This document shows positions 19,279-29,910 of a DNA stretch of 64,000 nucleotides, piece by piece. Each line of letters begins with the position of its first letter. The stretch's first letter is position 1. Origin of the DNA: Jiulongibacter sp. (GTDB taxonomy: Bacteria; Bacteroidota; Bacteroidia; Cytophagales; Spirosomataceae); NCBI GenBank assembly GCA_024645245.1, contig JAHEBN010000001.1, positions 1 to 64,000 of the forward strand, written 5' to 3'. A program made the position numbers and the translations under genes. The notes beneath the pieces were generated by a model that ran no database searches, was not told the origin of the DNA, and was given only the letters and a program-made list of their open reading frames with translations.

Positions 19279-20481
19279 ATGAAACATACCATGCGTTGGT
19301 ACGGGCCTAAAGACCCGGTTTCTTTAATGGACATTCGTCAGGCAGGTTGCTCGGGAGTAGTTACTGCCTTACATCAAATTCCAGTTGGTGCAGTATGGAC
19401 GGTAGAGGCTATTAAAGAACGTATTTCTATAGTAGAAAAAGACAATCAAAATTATTCAGCCTTAACCTGGGATGTGGTAGAAAGTCTGCCCGTTCACGAA
19501 GACATAAAAAAGGCTCTGCCCTCTCGCGAAAAGTACATCGAGAATTACAAAACTTCGCTTCGAAACTTAGCGGCTTGTGGTATTAATACCGTTTGCTATA
19601 ATTTTATGCCGGTATTGGATTGGACCCGTACGCAATTAGATTATCAAATGCCGGATGGTGCAAAAGCCTTGCGTTTTGTACATATCGATTTCGCTGCTTT
19701 CGAAATTTATATCCTGAAAAGACCCGGTGCCGAAAAAGACTATGACGAAGCAACACTAGCCGAAGCTAAAATTCGTTTCGAAACCATGACAGAAGAGGAA
19801 AAATCCAACCTCAAACGTAACGTTATGCAAGGCCTTCCAGGTTCGGATGATGCTTTCGATTTCGATACTTTTTTAGAGTTATTAGCTGAATATAAGCATA
19901 TTGGAGACAAAGAGTTGCGTGAAAATTTATATTATTTTATGCAGCAGGTGGGCCCGGTAGCTACCGAAGTAGGAGTAAATATGTGCATTCATCCGGATGA
20001 TCCTCCGCGGCCGATAATGGGTTTGCCTCGTGTGCTTTCAACCGAAAGCGACGTTGCCCAGCTTTTTGCCGCTTACGATAATCCGGCTAATGGGCTTACC
20101 TTTTGCACAGGTTCTTTCGGTGTAAGGCCAGATAATAATCTACCTCAAATGGTGAAAAGGTTTGGTAATCGAATTCATTTCATTCATTTACGTACCACCA
20201 AGAGAGAAGAAGACCCGCGAAATTTTCATGAAGCACCCCACATGGCAGGTGATGTGGATTTTTACCCAGTGGTTGAGGCTTTGTTATTAGAACAAAAACG
20301 CAGAATGGAGGCAGGTGAAAAAGTAACCGCAATTCCGATGAGACCCGATCACGGTCATCAGATGCTCGATGATCTGGGAAAAACTACCTATCCGGGCTAT
20401 TCTGCAATTGGCCGACTGAGAGGTTTGGCTGAGTTAAGAGGTATGGAAATAGCCATTAAAAGGCAGATTGAAAGTATTTAA
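19279..20481 (+). CDS. uxuA: mannonate dehydratase
   Basis: UxuA dehydrates D-mannonate to 2-keto-3-deoxygluconate in glucuronate catabolism. The 400-residue product opens with [19 protein letters not shown], a hallmark of the family. Metal-ligand segments are visible: [37 protein letters not shown] and PMRPDHGH. It is the first gene downstream of the LacI-type operator, followed by the GH67 alpha-glucuronidase and an SDR. A strong hairpin lies after its stop (20520-20552). Confidence 0.96.
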
Positions 20482-20519
20482 GTTAGACTTATTCCAATTC
20501 AAATAAGTATGCCGTATGT

Positions 20520-20552
20520 TTTGGGTCTTCGGACCCAAAGCTGCGGTTTTTT
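20520..20552 (+). terminator. UUCG-loop hairpin with downstream T-run between uxuA and the GH67 gene
   Basis: TTTGGGTC (20520-20527), loop TTCG, GACCCAAA (20532-20539) form a perfect 8-bp stem with an ultrastable C(UUCG)G loop. A run of six T follows after a short GC-rich spacer. It could be a partial terminator or an mRNA-stabilising 3' end for uxuA. Confidence 0.6.
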
Positions 20553-20640
20553 GATTAGTAAAGAATTATTCAACCCCAAACGAGAAAGCTATTTTTTGTT
20601 ATATCGCTCTAGCTTTTTAATAGTCAATAATATACTCAAT

Positions 20641-22728
20641 ATGAAAACTTTAGCCTGTTTATTTTTCCTTATTTCCGTTCAGGTATTTGCTAACGACGGT
20701 TCGGAGTTATGGCTAAAATATGATCTTATAGAAAACGAAACAGTACGGTCAAATTTTTCCAAATCGATCAATCAGATTGTGATAGATACACAAACAGAAA
20801 GGAGCACTTTGGCGGCAAGAGAACTACAAACCGCTCTTAAAGGTCTTTTAGGAAAAGAAGTTCCCATTTTGTTTTCTAAAGAAAATAAAAATTTAAAAAA
20901 ATCTATCTTTCTAACTGATTCTTATGCTGGCTCTGAACTAGGTTCCGAGGGATTTAAAATCGAGAATTTAAAGATATTAGCCAAAACAGACTTGGGCTTG
21001 CTATACGGCACTTTCGCATTTATACGTCACATACAAACTTCGGAAAAGCTGTATTTTTCACAAATAGAAAATCCCAAAGTCAAAATCCGGATGCTCAATC
21101 ATTGGGACAATGCCAATGGTACCGTAGAGCGGGGATATGCCGGATCATCCATATGGAAATGGTTTGAATTGCCCAATCAAATAGACCCAAGATTAATACA
21201 ATATGCCCGTGCCAATGCCTCTATCGGGATAAATGCAGTTTCTGTTAACAATGTAAATGCAAGCTCGAGATTTCTGACATCCGAGTATCTTACTAAAATT
21301 AAGGGAGTAGCTGATTTCTTAAGGCCATATGGTATAAAGGTCTTTATTTCTGTAAATTTTAGATCGCCCCGCACACTTGGCGGTTTAGAAACTTCTGACC
21401 CGCTCGATGCCGGAGTGAGAAATTGGTGGAAAGAAAAAACCGATGAAATTCATAAATACATTCCCGATTTTGGCGGGTTTTTGGTAAAAGCCAATTCGGA
21501 AGGCGAGCCAGGTCCGCAAGATTATGGAAGAACCCATGCCGACGGAGCAAATATGCTCGCGGAAGCGATGAAAGGAAGAGATGGCATTGTTATCTGGCGG
21601 GCATTTGTTTACAAAGCTGATCCGGATGGCGATCGATTTAAAGAAGCTTACGAACAATTCAAACCACTAGATGGCCAATTCGATAAAAAAGTTATTGTAC
21701 AAGTAAAAAACGGGCCGATTGATTTTATGCCACGGGAACCCTTTCATCCCATGTTTGGAGCTTTTCCAAAAACTCCTTTGGCAATGGAATTTCAGATTAC
21801 TCAGGAATATCTGGGGCATGCAAGTCATCTGGTTTACGAAGCTCCCATGTTAAAGGAATGCCTGGATTCCGATACCTTTTCAAAAGGAAAAGGCTCTACT
21901 GTAAGCAAAGTAATTGATGGGAGTTTAGATAATCAGGCTCTTTCCTTGATGGCAGGAGTTGCCAATACCGGTTCAGATGCCAATTTTACCGGGCACCCAT
22001 TTGGGCAAGCCAATTGGTATGCCTTTGGACGATTGGCCTGGGATTATGATTTAAGTTCGGAGCAAATCGCCAAAGAATGGATTCAAATGACACTGACTCA
22101 AAATACCCAAGCAGTTGCTCAACTTACCGATTTTATGATGGCTTCGCACCCGACTTATGTTAAATATACCTATCCGCTAGGCTTACACCACATGATGGGC
22201 GAGGGGCATCATTACGGACCACAGCCCTGGCTCGAAAAAAGTGGAAGACCAGATTGGACCTCCGTATATTATCACCGTGCCGCTGCCGACGGGCTCGGTT
22301 TTGACCGCACCGGTAAGTTGAGTAATGCACTTAAACTTTATGCACCAGAGGTGCAGGAAAATTGGGGAAAACCCGAAACTTGCGACTTGAATTACCTGAT
22401 GTGGTTTCATCATTTACCCTGGGATTATAAGCTTTCAACGGGCAAAACTCTTTGGAATGAGCTCATGAGCAGGTATTACGAGGGCGTGGAAGACGTAAAG
22501 AAGATGAACGATAAATGGCAAACTTTTAAACCGATTATAGATCCTGAAATTTTTGCAAATGTATCCGGAAGGTTACAAATACAGGAAAAAGAGGCTCTTT
22601 GGTGGCGGGATGCCTGTTATCTGTATTTTCGGGATTTCTCGAAAATGCCCTTACCGGCAGGTCTGGAAATGCCAAACAGAACCCTGGAAGAGGTTAAAAA
22701 AATAGAAGAGATTTATCATTTGCGTTAA
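20641..22728 (+). CDS. aguA: GH67 alpha-glucuronidase
   Basis: This enzyme releases (4-O-methyl)glucuronic acid from xylan-derived aldouronic acids. The ATG at 20641 is chosen because it starts a clear signal peptide (MKTLACLFFLISVQVFA). The same frame is open from 20509, but that extension crosses the UUCG hairpin and spoils the signal. The 695-residue product contains the GH67 core: VKANSEGEPGPQDYGRTHAD (catalytic acid Glu), PLDGQFDKKVIVQVKNGP (Asp) and MEFQITQEYLGH (Glu), so all three catalytic carboxylates appear present. Export to the periplasm is predicted. Together with uxuA and the SDR it couples oligosaccharide cleavage to uronate catabolism. Confidence 0.95.
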   Translation: MKTLACLFFLISVQVFANDGSELWLKYDLIENETVRSNFSKSINQIVIDTQTERSTLAARELQTALKGLLGKEVPILFSKENKNLKKSIFLTDSYAGSELGSEGFKIENLKILAKTDLGLLYGTFAFIRHIQTSEKLYFSQIENPKVKIRMLNHWDNANGTVERGYAGSSIWKWFELPNQIDPRLIQYARANASIGINAVSVNNVNASSRFLTSEYLTKIKGVADFLRPYGIKVFISVNFRSPRTLGGLETSDPLDAGVRNWWKEKTDEIHKYIPDFGGFLVKANSEGEPGPQDYGRTHADGANMLAEAMKGRDGIVIWRAFVYKADPDGDRFKEAYEQFKPLDGQFDKKVIVQVKNGPIDFMPREPFHPMFGAFPKTPLAMEFQITQEYLGHASHLVYEAPMLKECLDSDTFSKGKGSTVSKVIDGSLDNQALSLMAGVANTGSDANFTGHPFGQANWYAFGRLAWDYDLSSEQIAKEWIQMTLTQNTQAVAQLTDFMMASHPTYVKYTYPLGLHHMMGEGHHYGPQPWLEKSGRPDWTSVYYHRAAADGLGFDRTGKLSNALKLYAPEVQENWGKPETCDLNYLMWFHHLPWDYKLSTGKTLWNELMSRYYEGVEDVKKMNDKWQTFKPIIDPEIFANVSGRLQIQEKEALWWRDACYLYFRDFSKMPLPAGLEMPNRTLEEVKKIEEIYHLR

Positions 22729-22761
22729 AAATAGAAACCCTGATAATCAATAGAATAAAAC

Positions 22762-23517
22762 ATGAATAAATTTTCGTTAGAAGGAAAAATAGCTTTGGTA
22801 ACAGGAGGAGGTGCAGGAATTGGTTTGGCCATAACCGAATGTTTTATAGAAGCCGGTGCCAGAGTTGTGATAACAGGCCGAAGAGAGGAAGTTCTGAAAG
22901 AAACAGCAGACAGTTTAGGTGAAAAAGTAAGCTACAAAGTACACGATATTACAGATTTAAAAAGCATTCCGGCTCTGGTAGATGCCATCGAAAACGAGAT
23001 CGGTGCCATTGACATCCTGGTAAATAATGCTGGAGTGAATCAGAAAAAACCGGCCTTAGAAGTAACTGACGATGAATTTGACCGCATTCTGCAAACCAAT
23101 CTGTATGCTGTTTTCGTGTTAACCCGTGAAGTTGGTCGCAAAATGACCGAAAGGAAATCAGGGAGTATTATCATGATTTCGAGTATGGCCGCCTATTACG
23201 GAATAGACCGTGTGGTTTCTTATTCTGCTTCCAAAAATGGAGTGGAAGGGCTGGTAATGGCGTTTTCATCGGAGTTTGGAAAAGATAATGTGCGTGTAAA
23301 TTCGATTGCACCCGGCTTTATTGAAACCAATATGATGCTCACAGCTATGAACTCCGATCCGGCTAGAAAAAACAAAGCATTTGACAAAATTCATATGCAG
23401 CGATGGGGACAAATAAAAGATGTGGGTTATGCTGCAGTTTTTCTTGCCTCTGATGCTTCGGAATACATTACTTCCGTTTCACTACCTGTTGACGGGGGAA
23501 ATAGTAAGGGTTTTTAA
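22762..23517 (+). CDS. SDR-family oxidoreductase, probable fructuronate/mannonate reductase
   Basis: The 251-residue classical short-chain dehydrogenase has a cofactor motif TGGGAGIG (residues of about 13-20), NNAG, and a catalytic Ser-Tyr-Lys set in ISSMAAYYG and YSASKNG. The C-terminus (SEYITSVSLPVDGG) is typical. It lies 33 bp after the GH67 gene, in a module that has mannonate dehydratase but no uxuB. A D-fructuronate to D-mannonate reductase is therefore the best guess. A gluconate-5-dehydrogenase-like or other sugar-acid activity is possible. Confidence 0.88.
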   Translation: MNKFSLEGKIALVTGGGAGIGLAITECFIEAGARVVITGRREEVLKETADSLGEKVSYKVHDITDLKSIPALVDAIENEIGAIDILVNNAGVNQKKPALEVTDDEFDRILQTNLYAVFVLTREVGRKMTERKSGSIIMISSMAAYYGIDRVVSYSASKNGVEGLVMAFSSEFGKDNVRVNSIAPGFIETNMMLTAMNSDPARKNKAFDKIHMQRWGQIKDVGYAAVFLASDASEYITSVSLPVDGGNSKGF

Positions 23518-23762: not shown

Positions 23763-24431
23763 TCACTTTTTTTCTTTTGTAGTTACAAAAGGGACCGTGA
23801 CCTGTCTTATTTCATCTTCTAATGTGAGTACAAAAGTATTTTTTATGCTCAAATCCTCCTTGGTAAATGGCACCAGGTAACTTTCGCTATTCTCTTGAAA
23901 TATAAAATAAGTACCTAATTCTAAGCCCGGAATTAGCATTTCATAAGTTTCAATTAATCTTCGGTTTAACAGAAATGGTTGATTTTTTAATACTCTTAAA
24001 TACAAATTTGAGCTTTCATAATCTAAAACAGCCCTGTTTAATTCTGCTTTTCCATCCGAATTTGAATATATTTCAGCAACAATAGAACCTGATTCATTTA
24101 ATATTTCATACTTGATTCCTGATAAATATTTTTCACCGGAATCAAGTATTTTGTTTCTGTTTTTATCAATACAAGAATATATTGTGATGTTACTATCAGC
24201 CGAATAAAAGTTAATTAATTCATGTAGGAAAATTGCGTTTTGAGAAGTTCTTATTTTCAAATTTTCAAATTGTTCGTAGAATATATTTTGAAATGAATTA
24301 TAAAATTCACTTCGCCCGTTCAATAGTACTCCTTTAGAATTTTGTTTTGCAAAATAAGGTTTAGAAAAACCTGTTTTTTTTGCACAAACAAAAAAAAGCG
24401 TAATTAAAAGGACTATTATTAACTTTTTCAT
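23763..24431 (-). CDS. exported protein with SdrD-B-like calcium-binding repeat, function unknown
   Basis: The 222-residue product starts with a hydrophobic signal (MKKLIIVLLITLFFVCAKK); the Cys may make it a lipoprotein. Residues of about 80-125 resemble an SdrD_B/Cna-B module: DKNRNKILDSGEKYLSGIKY has the DxNxNxxxDxGE calcium-site pattern, and SNSDGKAEL follows. The rest is beta-rich and unfamiliar. It lies downstream of the LanB gene on the same strand but 441 bp away, so membership of the RiPP locus is only possible. It could be a surface or immunity-type protein. Confidence 0.68.
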   Translation of the reverse strand: MKKLIIVLLITLFFVCAKKTGFSKPYFAKQNSKGVLLNGRSEFYNSFQNIFYEQFENLKIRTSQNAIFLHELINFYSADSNITIYSCIDKNRNKILDSGEKYLSGIKYEILNESGSIVAEIYSNSDGKAELNRAVLDYESSNLYLRVLKNQPFLLNRRLIETYEMLIPGLELGTYFIFQENSESYLVPFTKEDLSIKNTFVLTLEDEIRQVTVPFVTTKEKK

Positions 24432-24872: not shown

Positions 24873-27764
24873 TTAAATGACTTTAGATTTCGCCAACTGT
24901 GATCGAAAGTGCTGAAAAAGCAGGTGAAATACACGTAATTCTATTTCTCTGTTATTTGATATAAAAAAACGGTTTATCTGCATATGAATAAATGAACTTA
25001 ACTCCGTCTCAGATAATGCATTTGTTTTTAAAATTGATTGTAGAAATAATAAATAATCTTCAGATCTATCTTCTAAAAGTTCAAATTCTATCCTATTTCT
25101 TTCTTCTCTGTAAATTGCATTTAACTTAGCTTTAATGCCTTTTTGATCCTTATATTCGGAGAGAAAACCATCACGGGATTTTTCACAAAAAGATATTTTC
25201 TCTGGTAAATTCAAACCATGTGCATTTAGCATGGCATTTATGCTAATTAAACATACATAAAGTCTTTCTTCATTGGAATGTTTTGAAATACAGCTTAGAA
25301 TATATTTACTTTCACTATGGAATATGGACTCAGCCAAATCCATATTTGAATACCTCTCGGTTTCGGGTAAATAAGAATCGATTTGAATTTTGTAAACTAT
25401 TTTTGATTGTATCTCGTTTTCTAAAATTTTATGAAAATTTCCGATAATTTCCCCAATTTCATTTATCAAAGGGTCAATTTTCAATCTTATCCGTAAATGA
25501 AAATCCGGGTCATTAAACCTTACAAAAAACCATTTTTGAATTCTTCCGGTCGATTCAAGTTTTGAAATTAATTTTTTGATTTTAGTCTTTAATAAATCAT
25601 CGGCATATTTGGCTCCGGTATAAATCTTTAAAAAAAGCCATTCTGAACCAGGTGGGTATAAGGTGGATGGTTTTATATCGGAGGATATCTTGTTTGCATT
25701 TTTTGCATTCCCTTTAACAGGTATTATTATTTCTGAAGTATAGTTTCTGTTGTTTCGTTTAATAAATTTCTTATCTCCATTAAAAATATATTCCTCCAGA
25801 ATAAGCTCATTTTTATTCAGCAGTTCTTGTTTTAAAATATCTTTGCAAACCTTCAATTTAAGATCAAGCACTAGTTCATTGTCAAATTCTTTTATGATTA
25901 CAAATCGCGGTAAAATTTCCATTACATCCGCTTCATTCTTTTTGTTAATAATCCACCTGGCTTTTGAAAGAATTAACTTTTTATAATATATACGTGGCAA
26001 AAATGTTTCTTTATTAAAAATGCCCCAATCCCATGAAAAGTTTAAAGAATTTTCCTGAAATTGTAAATCTGCAAGAAACCGATAAAGCGGGAGGCCACTT
26101 TGAAAATTATGAGCATTTGGTAAACGAGGTATAATTCGTTTATTGAGTTTTTTCGACCATAAAATAATAGTTCGGCCATTTCTGACGGAAACCATCAAAT
26201 CATCCAACTCAATTCTATTTTCGTTTGCTGCGGAAGGAATAGTATAATAAGGAATCTCCTTTTTATTTATAGGCGGATGCACAAGCACATTACCCACCGG
26301 ACCCTCGGGCAAATAAATAATATCCGCCATAATGGCTTCTGGGTTTTGGTTCTGCTCAAAATTTGTAATATTCTCTAATTTTAACTGTAAATCATCATCC
26401 GCCATGGCAAACCTGGCCATCAAACTTGTGGGTGAGCCCCCTGAGATATTTTTTATATGAAAGTTGAAATCTTGAGCATCAAGTTCATCAGAATTCTTAG
26501 CCAAAATATTTCCCAAAATATAAAAACTGTCGGGTATATTTAATTTTGATAAATCAGGAATTAGCGTCTCAGGTATTTCAACTTGCCGACTTTTTCCAGT
26601 CAAAGCTTTTTTATAAAGATAAACTAAAATATCAGTGTTAATTCTTTCTTTTATTGATATACCATTAGATTCATTATCAAGATTAATTTCATCCAGTCCA
26701 TAACTTTGGCTCATTCCATAGTTTATACCATGCTCAGGATCAAGTGCTAAAAGAATGGGAACCTCGGAATTATCATATCTTTTGTAAAATTGTGTTTTGA
26801 AATTTTCCAGCAAATCAGATATCCCATTTTTAAACAAGGGGCTTATTTCATAAACCTGAGTTAAAATTTGCTCAATAATCGTTTTACTAAAGGTTGGCTT
26901 TTTTGTGTTAAACTTGGTAATAGAATAAAATATATTTTTGGGCAAATCATCTTTTAAAAAAGAAGCCGTCAATTGCACTTTTAACCGCTCTAATTTTAAA
27001 ATCGATAGTTTATTTTCCCTAATAAGTGATGATGATTTAAAAAATGAATTACCTACATCTGCGGGCAAATATTTACTTATTTGAGCCAGCCATTCTGCAG
27101 AACTGTGGTAAAAAGTAGGGTTCAGGTCCGAAACCAGGATTTTTTCCTGAATTAATTCATTAATAATCCCGTCCAATGAATTAATATCTTCCAAATCATT
27201 TATCAGCTCCTGGTAGCTAATGCCATTTCTGGCCTTGACTAGTATCTTGTTTAAGTCTTCGTTAAGTTCAATAATACTTAGTTGAAAATCGTCATTTTGT
27301 TTTTCAAAATAACGCAAGCAATCACCCAATTGGAACAAACCATTACTGGAAAAAATCCGGCTGTTGGGGATTAAATGGTCTTTGTATTTTTCAAAAATTA
27401 ATTGCCGGAAAACTATGTCAAGTTCCAGATGACAAATATTCTGGCTTATTTCTAAATGGGTCGTATCTTCAATTTCGGCGGTGAAAAAACCTGCAAAGGA
27501 ACCAAACGGGGTAGGCCTTGTGGATATGCGGGAAATGTATTTATAAAGAGTCTTGAATAGGTCAGGATTTGAGACATCACTTTTTATATATTCAGTTAAA
27601 ATATTAAAAAGTTCGGAATTTGATAGGTAAATGGATTTTAAGAAAGAGGAATCTCGGGATATTATTTTTTTTACAGCATTTTCATTTCCATCTGAAAATA
27701 TTCTTTTAAAAAAGGATTCTTCCTTTGCAGGAATCCGAAACATCACGAAATCAAATGCCTCCAC
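24873..27764 (-). CDS. full-length class I lanthipeptide dehydratase (LanB)
   Basis: LanB enzymes glutamylate Ser/Thr of a precursor peptide using Glu-tRNA and then eliminate glutamate to give dehydroalanine/dehydrobutyrine. The 963 residues span the N-terminal glutamylation domain (FDFVMFRIP near the start; RISTRPTPFGSFAGFF at about 79-94) and the C-terminal SpaB_C elimination domain (about 690-955: SEWLFLKIYTG, FVRFNDPDFHLRIRLK, and SFIHMQINRFF near the end, with the conserved Arg pair and His). Both halves look intact, unlike PEARL enzymes that lack the elimination domain. The start is GTG at 27764 (an ATG lies seven codons on). It overlaps the end of the histidine kinase gene by 14 bp. 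No LanC is encoded nearby. Confidence 0.92.
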   Translation of the reverse strand: MEAFDFVMFRIPAKEESFFKRIFSDGNENAVKKIISRDSSFLKSIYLSNSELFNILTEYIKSDVSNPDLFKTLYKYISRISTRPTPFGSFAGFFTAEIEDTTHLEISQNICHLELDIVFRQLIFEKYKDHLIPNSRIFSSNGLFQLGDCLRYFEKQNDDFQLSIIELNEDLNKILVKARNGISYQELINDLEDINSLDGIINELIQEKILVSDLNPTFYHSSAEWLAQISKYLPADVGNSFFKSSSLIRENKLSILKLERLKVQLTASFLKDDLPKNIFYSITKFNTKKPTFSKTIIEQILTQVYEISPLFKNGISDLLENFKTQFYKRYDNSEVPILLALDPEHGINYGMSQSYGLDEINLDNESNGISIKERINTDILVYLYKKALTGKSRQVEIPETLIPDLSKLNIPDSFYILGNILAKNSDELDAQDFNFHIKNISGGSPTSLMARFAMADDDLQLKLENITNFEQNQNPEAIMADIIYLPEGPVGNVLVHPPINKKEIPYYTIPSAANENRIELDDLMVSVRNGRTIILWSKKLNKRIIPRLPNAHNFQSGLPLYRFLADLQFQENSLNFSWDWGIFNKETFLPRIYYKKLILSKARWIINKKNEADVMEILPRFVIIKEFDNELVLDLKLKVCKDILKQELLNKNELILEEYIFNGDKKFIKRNNRNYTSEIIIPVKGNAKNANKISSDIKPSTLYPPGSEWLFLKIYTGAKYADDLLKTKIKKLISKLESTGRIQKWFFVRFNDPDFHLRIRLKIDPLINEIGEIIGNFHKILENEIQSKIVYKIQIDSYLPETERYSNMDLAESIFHSESKYILSCISKHSNEERLYVCLISINAMLNAHGLNLPEKISFCEKSRDGFLSEYKDQKGIKAKLNAIYREERNRIEFELLEDRSEDYLLFLQSILKTNALSETELSSFIHMQINRFFISNNREIELRVFHLLFQHFRSQLAKSKVI

Positions 27765-28851
27765 TCAATCTTATGTTAAGATTTACCTGATACTGATTAT
27801 TATCCTGATCGATATTTAAATCATACTTATTGGCATATTTCGCATTAAGCCTACGTATGGTATTCTCTAATCCAATTCCATGTGAAACATTCAGACTATG
27901 AACTTTTTTATTTGCTGGCAAGAAATTAACACAGACAAAATAAAGCGTGTCCTTTTCAATACGAATACTCATTTTGACCCATGAGCTATCATTCGTTTTA
28001 TTCAGGCCATGTTTTACTGCGTTTTCAGCAAAACAAATCAAAACCAAAGGTATAATCCGATAATTAGCAGGATCACCGGATATTTCCATATCAATGCTTT
28101 TGTTTTTGTTCAAACGCAAGCGTTCCAAATCGACAAAATCATTGATAAACTGAATTTCATTTTCCAGGCTAACTGTTTCATGCCCAGATTCAAAAAGCGA
28201 ATATCGCATTAAATCTGCCAATTTAAGTATGCTATCAGCGGCTCTGTCATTATCGGCCACCATACCGTAGATATTATTCAAGGTGTTGAACAGAAAATGC
28301 GGGTTTATTTGGGCCCTTAAGAAATTCAATTCCAGTTTTAAATTTTCTTCCTTTAACTTTTTGGATTCGTACAAATTGGCGAATACCTCATAAAAAAGTT
28401 TTAATCCAAAAGGTAACGAAAATAGATAAATAGTAGAGATGTAGTTTAAGTAAAATAAGTTTTTGTCATAAAATATTTCATAAAAGGACAATTCTCCTAT
28501 TTTGCTTTTCATTCTGTCAATCATTCCATTTTCTTCACCAAATTCTTTCAGAATACTTATGGAATAATATGTAGAATATTGAAACATTAATATCGCAAAT
28601 ACAAATCCGAAAAGCAATCCAGAAAAGTTCTTTTTACTATTAAACGAATAGTCAATTATGTAAAAAGCAATAATTATCGACAACAAGTTTATGCAATAAA
28701 AATATAAGTCAATTCTCGAATTCTCAGAAGATTTGTCAAAAACTGCTGACCAATTGAAAATAGAAATAAAAATCCAAAATAAGCAATGAAATAATATTTT
28801 AAATTTTAATTGCTGATTTAGGTGATATACTTTTTCAAAGTATTTTTCCAA
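27751..28851 (-). CDS. LytS/YehU-type sensor histidine kinase
   Basis: The 366-residue product has four predicted membrane helices (about 18-38, 49-69, 76-97, 133-157). This leaves a periplasmic loop of about 35 residues (98-132) as possible sensor. A short coiled linker is followed by the His_kinase domain with LRAQINPHFLFNTLNN (phospho-acceptor His at about 185), the N-box FAENAVKHGLNK and the G-box GIGLENTIRRL. The only in-frame start after an upstream stop is TTG at 28851. The gene lies 35 bp after the 47-codon precursor gene and overlaps the LanB start by 14 bp. It should pair with the LytTR regulator at 29140-29910, with the precursor gene lying between the two. Confidence 0.92.
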   Translation of the reverse strand: MEKYFEKVYHLNQQLKFKILFHCLFWIFISIFNWSAVFDKSSENSRIDLYFYCINLLSIIIAFYIIDYSFNSKKNFSGLLFGFVFAILMFQYSTYYSISILKEFGEENGMIDRMKSKIGELSFYEIFYDKNLFYLNYISTIYLFSLPFGLKLFYEVFANLYESKKLKEENLKLELNFLRAQINPHFLFNTLNNIYGMVADNDRAADSILKLADLMRYSLFESGHETVSLENEIQFINDFVDLERLRLNKNKSIDMEISGDPANYRIIPLVLICFAENAVKHGLNKTNDSSWVKMSIRIEKDTLYFVCVNFLPANKKVHSLNVSHGIGLENTIRRLNAKYANKYDLNIDQDNNQYQVNLNIRLSGGI

Positions 28852-28886
28852 ACATTCAAATTGTTTATGTTAATTCATTTGCAATT

Positions 28887-29030
28887 TTATTGAATTGCCG
28901 GTGACCATGTACCTAAAGTAGTCAAATGATTTTTGCCAGTTCCTGACTTTACTTTGTTTGAAACCTTACCAATTACTTCTTTTCTTAAAAATGATAGGTT
29001 TTTTTTCGATTTTAGCTGATTTGCGTTCAT
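28887..29030 (-). CDS. 47-residue candidate RiPP precursor, cysteine-free
   Basis: ATG at 29030 (minus strand) to TAA at 28887. The N-terminal half, MNANQLKSKKNLSFLRKEVI, resembles the leader of Bacteroidota class I lanthipeptide precursors (Lys-rich, LxxKKxxxxxL pattern). The C-terminal half, KSGTGKNHLTTLGTWSPAIQ, is rich in Thr/Ser (S29, T31, T37, T38, T41, S43), possible dehydration sites, and ends in the polypeptide's only Trp-containing stretch. There is no Cys anywhere, so lanthionine rings cannot form. It has its own near-consensus promoter 38 bp upstream and is followed within 35 bp by the kinase, then LanB. It is too short for usual gene callers. Its identity as the LanB substrate is inference from size, composition and position. 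Confidence 0.72.
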   Translation of the reverse strand: MNANQLKSKKNLSFLRKEVIGKVSNKVKSGTGKNHLTTLGTWSPAIQ

Positions 29031-29067
29031 GTTGCTTTGGGTTTATTGTTTAAATTAAATGATACAC

Positions 29068-29097
29068 CAAAAGTACAATTCAGCTTCGCTGGCCAAA
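29068..29097 (-). promoter_or_regulatory. promoter of the precursor gene
   Basis: On the minus strand TTTG (29097-29094), 18 nt, then TACTTTTG (29075-29068) matches the Bacteroidota -33/-7 consensus TTTG-N19-TAnnTTTG almost exactly. The expected transcript start is about 30 nt before the precursor ATG. Confidence 0.72.
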
Positions 29098-29139
29098 TAT
29101 TTTTGCGACAAAAGATGAAATTAATGAGATAAAAGCATT

Positions 29140-29910
29140 TCAGCGTATTTGTTTGGATAGCGTAATTTCATTTATCTTTTGTTTTACCATTTCCTGATAG
29201 GTGCGGCCTATCGGAATTGTCTTTCCCATTTTCAGAATTAACTGGTTCCCTTGTACATAATTTATAACTTCACTGTTAATAATATATGACCTGTGCACTC
29301 GAATAAATTGATTATCGGGAAGTTCTTTTTCTATTATATGCAATGGCAACCTAACTACAAAAACCTTCTGCCCCGGATTAATAAAGTTGATTTTTATGTA
29401 GTCTTCCAGACTTTCTATGTAAGAAATCTCTTCAGGTTGTACTTTGAGGTTTTTCTTATCCGCCTTTAAATAGAAAGAAGATTGCTTTTTGGTACTAAAT
29501 TCCTGCAAATTCTGCCCACCGAAGGTATTTTGTATCAAAGACAATCTTTCTTGTACCCTTTCTATCGATTTGGTAAAATGGGCAAAAGATATTGGCTTGA
29601 GTAAATAATCTATTACGTCAAATTCATATCCCTTTAAAGCATATTCGGGATAAGCTGAAGTAATAATGATAAAAGGTTTTTGATTACCTAAAATATCAAG
29701 TAACTCAAAGCCAGTTAATTCTGGCATATTGATATCCAAAAAAAGTAGTTGGGGCTTTAGCTCTTTTACCTGTTTTAGAGCTGTAATCGGATCATTGGAC
29801 TCCCCTACCAATTCTAATGAATCTATTCTACTAATAAATCTGGAAACTATTTCGACTGCTATAGGCTCATCATCAAGTACATAGCAAGATATTTTTGACT
29901 CTGATATCAT
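29140..29910 (-). CDS. LytTR-family response regulator
   Basis: The 256-residue product has a receiver domain (about 8-125; acidic pair DDE near the start, phospho-acceptor D59 in LLFLDINMPEL, and LLKPIS) and a LytTR DNA-binding domain (about 150-250; ISYIESLEDYIKI, FIRVHRSYIIN, IPIGRTY). It lies upstream of the precursor, kinase and LanB genes on the same strand and is probably the partner of the LytS-type kinase. A possible -7 element (TAGATTTG, 29966-29973 on the minus strand) precedes it. LytTR regulators bind paired direct repeats. I could not point to a convincing pair. Confidence 0.93.
   Translation of the reverse strand: MISESKISCYVLDDEPIAVEIVSRFISRIDSLELVGESNDPITALKQVKELKPQLLFLDINMPELTGFELLDILGNQKPFIIITSAYPEYALKGYEFDVIDYLLKPISFAHFTKSIERVQERLSLIQNTFGGQNLQEFSTKKQSSFYLKADKKNLKVQPEEISYIESLEDYIKINFINPGQKVFVVRLPLHIIEKELPDNQFIRVHRSYIINSEVINYVQGNQLILKMGKTIPIGRTYQEMVKQKINEITLSKQIR

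Follow-up and report, generated by a model that had tools for sequence, protein, structure and literature searches.

Organisation of the locus

The window analysed here is a stretch of 64,000 nucleotides from Jiulongibacter sp. (assembly GCA_024645245.1, contig JAHEBN010000001.1, positions 1 to 64,000), and our subject is a four-gene locus on its minus strand that encodes a LanB dehydratase, a LytS/LytTR two-component pair and a putative precursor peptide. A sequence-only reading of this DNA had described a LytTR regulator, a 47-codon gene, a LytS-type kinase and a full-length LanB in that order on one strand, and the open reading frames (ORFs) and Pfam domains agree with that description throughout. 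Read 5′ to 3′, the regulator is followed after a 109-nt gap by the 47-codon ORF, which starts with ATG, and then by lytS and lanB, with the start of lanB and the end of lytS overlapping by 14 nt. The genes and putative control elements are as follows.

29140..29910, minus strand: LytTR response regulator of 256 aa, with a receiver and a LytTR DNA-binding domain (Pfam Response_reg 4e-16, LytTR 1e-17)
29122..29135, minus strand: putative LytTR box, the distal half of a direct repeat (CTTTTATCTCATTA), located with a position weight matrix (PWM) from relatives' promoters
29101..29114, minus strand: proximal LytTR-type box (CTTTTGTCGCAAAA), directly upstream of the -33 element
29068..29097, minus strand: Bacteroidota-type promoter, TTTG-N18-TACTTTTG, 37 nt before the ATG of the 47-codon ORF
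28887..29030, minus strand: putative precursor peptide gene of 47 codons, MNANQLKSKKNLSFLRKEVIGKVSNKVKSGTGKNHLTTLGTWSPAIQ, proposed from the ORF, its composition, a leader-like motif, and the promoter and repeat
27751..28851, minus strand: LytS-type membrane histidine kinase of 366 aa, TTG start (Pfam His_kinase 9e-26)
24873..27764, minus strand: full-length LanB dehydratase of 963 aa, GTG start (Lant_dehydr_N 1e-83, Lant_dehydr_C 5e-55; MadB 9g04 1.8e-41; active-site residues)

Pfam found no separate sensor domain in the kinase, and no gene for LanC, a protease or an exporter adjoins the four genes.

LanB retains all but one of the tested residues for glutamylation and elimination

Both a glutamylation and an elimination domain had been attributed to this LanB, and both are present. 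Lant_dehydr_N covers residues 38–644 and Lant_dehydr_C residues 709–952, the two families (PF04738/PF14028) scoring 282 bits (cut-off 28) and 188 bits (cut-off 24.4), and residues 16–948 align with the solved dehydratase MadB (9g04). The active site was checked in an alignment with 19 relatives, using MadB/NisB numbering (PMC12241602). For glutamylation, the equivalents of NisB R14, Y80, R83, R87, T89, D121 and R464 are kept (window R10, Y76, R79, R83, T85, D116 and R451), as are those of R786, R826 and H961 for elimination (window R758, R804 and H927). Judged by its sequence, the window LanB keeps its catalytic residues, those tested being present bar one dispensable Asp that is considered below. 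A useful comparison comes from Runella, which we take to belong to the same bacterial family as the window organism. The LanB of a LanC-type cluster from Runella dehydrates its own precursor in E. coli when supplied with Bacteroidota tRNA-Glu/GluRS (PMC9993889).

LanC and a Cys-containing precursor are not detected

The assembly of the window genome comprises 4.55 Mb in 315 contigs and is 98.5% complete; it contains one LanB gene. A profile search of this genome gave no match to LanC (PF05147), and neither did an iterated LanC profile applied to the locus, so that the candidate of a hidden LanC nearby was rejected. The same genome yielded no match to the C39 peptidase (PF03412) and no second lanA-type leader over the cut-off, whilst the gaps adjoining the locus held no convincing alternative precursor and no Cys-bearing small ORF of note. 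The claim that the locus is without LanC, protease or exporter is thus upheld and, for LanC, extends to the genome.

The 47-residue peptide has no Cys, as had been stated for the precursor, and no GG site; its predicted isoelectric point (pI) is 11.3, and six Ser/Thr (S29, T31, T37, T38, T41 and S43) lie in the 23 residues that follow the leader-like motif. A GG site with a C39 protease-transporter is common in Bacteroidota, if not universal. The peptide matches no Pfam or NCBIfam family, including NF038153, which describes the LxLxKx5L leader. By its predicted chemistry the window system would work like a class I dehydratase system, but it departs from two defining class I features, since neither LanC nor a Cys-containing precursor for (methyl)lanthionine was found.

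A promoter and a LytTR-type repeat precede the 47-codon ORF

The promoter consensus of the Bacteroidota is general knowledge, and LytTR domains are known to bind direct repeats of the kind found here. The distal and proximal boxes are spaced by exactly 21 bp and agree at 10 of 14 positions, the distal half being degenerate. The PWM was built from the promoters of relatives, with the window not included, and the number of proximal boxes expected in a gap this long is 0.011. The combination of promoter and box occurs within the window only before the 47-codon ORF. Strict promoter matches number two in the 64 kb against 4.1 expected by chance, a count that is not above chance, so the weight of the promoter lies in its position. 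A relaxed form (TTG-N17-23-TAnnTTTG) stands upstream of 22 of 71 peptide ORFs, the window included, compared with 0.7% of background short ORFs. In relatives, CATTGGTCGAAAAA repeats 21 or 22 bp apart lie directly upstream of the -33 element. A strict pattern picks out 19 of 70 promoters and nothing in shuffles; the PWM finds LytTR-type repeats at clearly more promoters than these 19, and most of the relatives' peptide promoters have them. No RNA structure was found in the gap before the ORF (z 0.58).

Promoter and repeat together support the ORF as a gene and the LytTR regulator as its controller, although the promoter also serves lytS and lanB and is thus more direct evidence for the transcript than for the ORF. 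The regulator probably controls this promoter through the putative 21-bp direct repeat. The link to the two-component pair drawn by the sequence-only reading is therefore supported at the level of transcription.

LanC-free LanB loci are widespread in relatives

The four-gene arrangement had been proposed as something to seek in related genomes, and it recurs at many LanB loci. We annotated about 19 kb around each of 130-odd relatives' LanB genes with profiles built in this analysis, and counted 131 loci. No LanC was present in the stretch examined at 98 of these, some stretches ending at contig ends. Both LytS and LytTR lay within 3.5 kb of LanB at 81 of the 98 LanC-free loci and at 101 of all 131; LytS is otherwise rare, the more distant 813 kb of these contigs holding three. 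At the level of genomes, 44 of 114 that bear LanB have no LanC hit, the window genome among them. Public records also contain such loci, unrecognised: a Fibrella plasmid carries in a row a kinase, LytTR, a 40-aa 'hypothetical protein' and a 'lantibiotic dehydratase', with no LanC annotated nearby, and plasmid stretches of Hymenobacter and Chryseobacterium look similar as far as they are annotated. The LanC-free LanB/LytS/LytTR architecture is widespread in the family, at dozens of loci, and is not unique to the window, whose locus fits this group in having LytS, LytTR and LanB together and no LanC. The window genome is the sole member of its genus in the comparison set, and its LanB is at best 36% identical to the others.

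The LanC-free loci typically carry, beside the regulators, one gene for a basic, Ser/Thr-rich peptide of 40–57 residues without a GG site. We collected 46 non-redundant peptides from such loci, selected for their place and composition and, in part, for a leader motif. Their cores, taken after the leader motif, have no Cys in 21 cases, one in 24 and two in one; the mean pI is 10.9 and the cores are 32% Ser/Thr. The eight precursors collected from LanC loci carry a GG site and 3–5 Cys, and their pI averages 4.5. The window peptide matches the LanC-free group in size, pI, Cys count and Ser/Thr content. The leader of the largest subgroup reads RLxLKKERxxxL(T/S); the score of this subgroup with NF038153 stays under the cut-off of that family. 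Conservation of the 47-codon ORF next to LanB had been set in advance as a test of the sequence-only reading, and the outcome is divided: peptides alike in size, position, charge and composition are found again and again, yet none of them is a significant match to the window peptide in sequence.

In trees of LanB, the window protein groups with those of five sister loci (L037, L043, L057, L039 and L059), with support of 99 (fasttree, 132 rows) and 95 (mixture model, 40 rows, from which L043 was left out). All five have LytS, LytTR and Cys-free peptides of 42–46 residues directly after LytTR. The LanC-free organisation itself recurs in several LanB clades.

Some related loci have features of their own. 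In a LanB-LytTR-LytS clade (L108, L111, L114, L115, L125, L130, L151 and L153) the peptides end in TTSGxxCT, with a single Cys and a different type of core. At L093 (4636-5758, minus strand) several near-identical tandem peptides of 40–42 aa ending in SSTWPTVATVIG lie close to a LanB whose neighbour is weakly LanC-like, and at L038 (2326-2529) a Cys-free peptide, LQLKKETISLLDNKSASNNQRTGTMLTTGY, follows a LytS/LytTR pair inside a complete lanthipeptide cluster of a Spirosoma oryzicola plasmid. One LanC-free clade has a stand-alone receiver-like protein of about 120–144 aa between peptide and LanB (L053 7659-8093, L070 7487-7846, L091 7224-7592 and similar genes). The viewed members of this clade have lost the phospho-acceptor Asp and acidic pocket, and Pfam misses the degenerate ones; copies that keep the Asp occur at L040 and L072, which are LanC loci, and at L044 and L090. 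The degenerate form might serve LanB or the kinase as a pseudo-receiver partner. In the sister locus L037 (13163-15193), a radical SAM protein and a DUF5694 protein lie side by side downstream of LanB.

Discussion

We think it rather probable that the window locus is a LanC-independent class-I-dehydratase operon that makes a linear peptide containing dehydroalanine (Dha) and dehydrobutyrine (Dhb) under LytS/LytTR control. In this scheme the LytS/LytTR pair would act through the 21-bp direct repeat on the promoter, giving one transcript that carries the 47-codon peptide gene, lytS and lanB. LanB would bind the N-terminal leader of the peptide, around residues 12–24, and glutamylate S29, T31, T37, T38, T41 and S43 of the core from glutamyl-tRNA, and elimination of glutamate by the same enzyme would leave Dha/Dhb. 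The product would stay linear because the peptide lacks Cys and the genome shows no detectable LanC. The operon, the intact catalytic residues, the promoter with its repeat, the lack of a detectable LanC or of Cys, and the recurrence in relatives are the parts of the scheme that the analysis supports, and with the LanC-free, Cys-free and two-component-linked features borne out a linear dehydrated product is the best inference. Dehydration of the 47-residue peptide, leader removal, export and the function of the product we infer; no dedicated gene for leader removal or export lies nearby. The likeliest single role, which we hold tentatively, is that of a signal or membrane-active peptide that acts back on the kinase. 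What makes such signalling appealing is that the kinase is encoded on one transcript with the peptide and seems to have no sensor domain of its own.

Several observations weigh against this interpretation. By its sequence alone the 47-codon ORF is only plausibly a real gene: its codon usage is neutral, 9% of shuffled gaps give an ORF as long (p = 0.09), and its partial leader motif, LSFLRKEVIGKVS, scored with a 13-residue motif model, is in the top 2.8% of short ORFs, at a level that 14% of shuffles reach. Comparison with relatives' peptides by two rounds of hidden Markov model search, pairwise alignment and motif models was not significant, the subgroup profiles scoring the window peptide at 0.6 to 2.0 bits or below. 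About half of the relatives' cores keep one Cys. The absence of LanC rests on profile searches of an assembly in 315 contigs, and a distinct LanC cluster lies about 10–20 kb from each of three sister loci out of the five; it could in principle act in trans, though the sister peptides are Cys-free. The window LanB forms a long branch, so its placement with these loci is likely rather than certain, and it has Ile at the position of NisB D299. Secretion of the peptide and its plausible sensing by the kinase are both hypothetical.

Some of these points would suit a remnant of a lanthipeptide cluster that has lost LanC, the transporter and its true precursors, leaving a spurious 47-codon ORF: the LanB branch is long, ORF length and codon usage are unconvincing taken alone, and the peptide sequence is not conserved. 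We nevertheless judge this improbable, since the reading frames of LanB, kinase and regulator run uninterrupted from end to end and the catalytic residues are kept, the same LanC-free organisation is found in several LanB clades, and a promoter with repeat stands before the ORF. The non-significant similarity to relatives' peptides, and the fact that precursors can be unlinked, would equally allow the LanB substrate to be encoded elsewhere, with the 47-codon ORF a leader or regulatory ORF. This too is unlikely: there is no other lanA-type leader over the cut-off in the genome and no better small ORF in the adjoining gaps, and what such promoters precede in relatives is the peptide gene.

Two further readings concern the chemistry. 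In E. coli, glutathione adds readily to dehydrated class I peptides (PMC9993889), and no cyclase competes here, so Dha/Dhb might capture an external thiol, from glutathione or a protein Cys, and the final product be a conjugate instead of a free linear peptide; with no dedicated conjugating enzyme seen beside the genes, we regard this as distinctly doubtful. Loss of D299, which is also replaced by Thr in five sister LanBs, could, together with the divergence of the enzyme, be taken to mean glutamylation without elimination, leaving glutamyl esters or another modification. That outcome seems very improbable, as the equivalents of R786, R826 and H961 are all kept and the D299A variant of NisB remains near wild-type, with 7–8 dehydrations in vivo (PMC4341554). 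For the same reason Ile at this position is no evidence of inactivity, and the idea of a LanB inactivated through loss of D299 was dropped.

The proposed linear-peptide operon can be set beside several known systems. It resembles Bacteroidota class I clusters (LxLxKx5L leader, NF038153), such as those of Runella and Chryseobacterium (PMC9993889), in its full-length two-domain LanB and basic leader-like motif. Those clusters have LanC, usually a C39 transporter, GG leaders and 3–5 Cys, whereas the window has no detectable LanC and no C39, GG or Cys. Several LanC-type Bacteroidota lanthipeptide clusters also have LytS/LytTR nearby. With nisin (NisRK, NisB) the window system shares two-component control of a LanB operon, and the same dehydratase chemistry is expected. 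In nisin biosynthesis NisC makes the rings and mature nisin is the signal, and LytS/LytTR is a type of pair unrelated to NisRK; no ring can be expected to form in the window system. Linaridins, goadsporin (PMC5303826) and thiopeptides are ribosomally synthesised and post-translationally modified peptides (RiPPs) with dehydro residues that are not made into lanthionines, and are alike in having Dha/Dhb that are not closed by LanC. Linaridins are not known to use LanB, and goadsporin and thiopeptides employ split LanB-like proteins plus azole formation, in contrast to the one full-length LanB acting alone that the window would have. The LytTR-controlled circuits agr and com are similar in their LytTR regulator and in having, ahead of a peptide operon, direct repeats spaced by about 21 bp, but the window has no visible processing partner of the AgrB/ComA type and no thiolactone, and its operon includes a dehydratase.

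The sequence-only reading knew of no described system with this composition. In the open papers searched, subscription journals lying outside, we found no published description of a LanC-free LanB/LytTR class or of matching Spirosoma or Dyadobacter lanthipeptides; as an architecture the composition is widespread in the family, as the 81 of 98 LanC-free loci with LytS and LytTR attest. A LanC-driven survey noted that Spirosoma linguale has four LanBs, only one of them in an apparent lantibiotic cluster (PMC3091789), so unpaired LanBs had been seen earlier and were not interpreted. Searches of genomes for class I lanthipeptides have mostly started from LanC (for example PMC3091789) or from Cys-containing precursors, and LanC-free LanB operons are easily missed as a result. 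In one family they account for about three quarters of the LanB loci that we examined. The chances seem to us evenly balanced that they represent a large unrecognised RiPP class, in which a full-length LanB without LanC makes linear Dha/Dhb peptides, one per operon, switched by LytS/LytTR via promoter repeats and possibly self-sensed as signals, the class comprising dozens of loci within one family and some beyond. If the products are indeed linear Dha/Dhb peptides, they would constitute a set of electrophilic peptides that has yet to be exploited, and their inducers and role could readily be sought by way of the promoter repeats.

Neighbouring genes

The upstream neighbour of the locus is a DEAD helicase. 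Just downstream of lanB (23763-24431, minus strand) lies a gene for a 222-aa protein with a signal-like N-terminal stretch and weak SdrD_B/SpaA-like similarity; its Pfam matches are all below cut-off and give no firm family. Farther on (19279-23517, plus strand), inspection by eye suggests a uronate-utilisation set, with mannonate dehydratase-, alpha-glucuronidase- and short-chain dehydrogenase-like ORFs.

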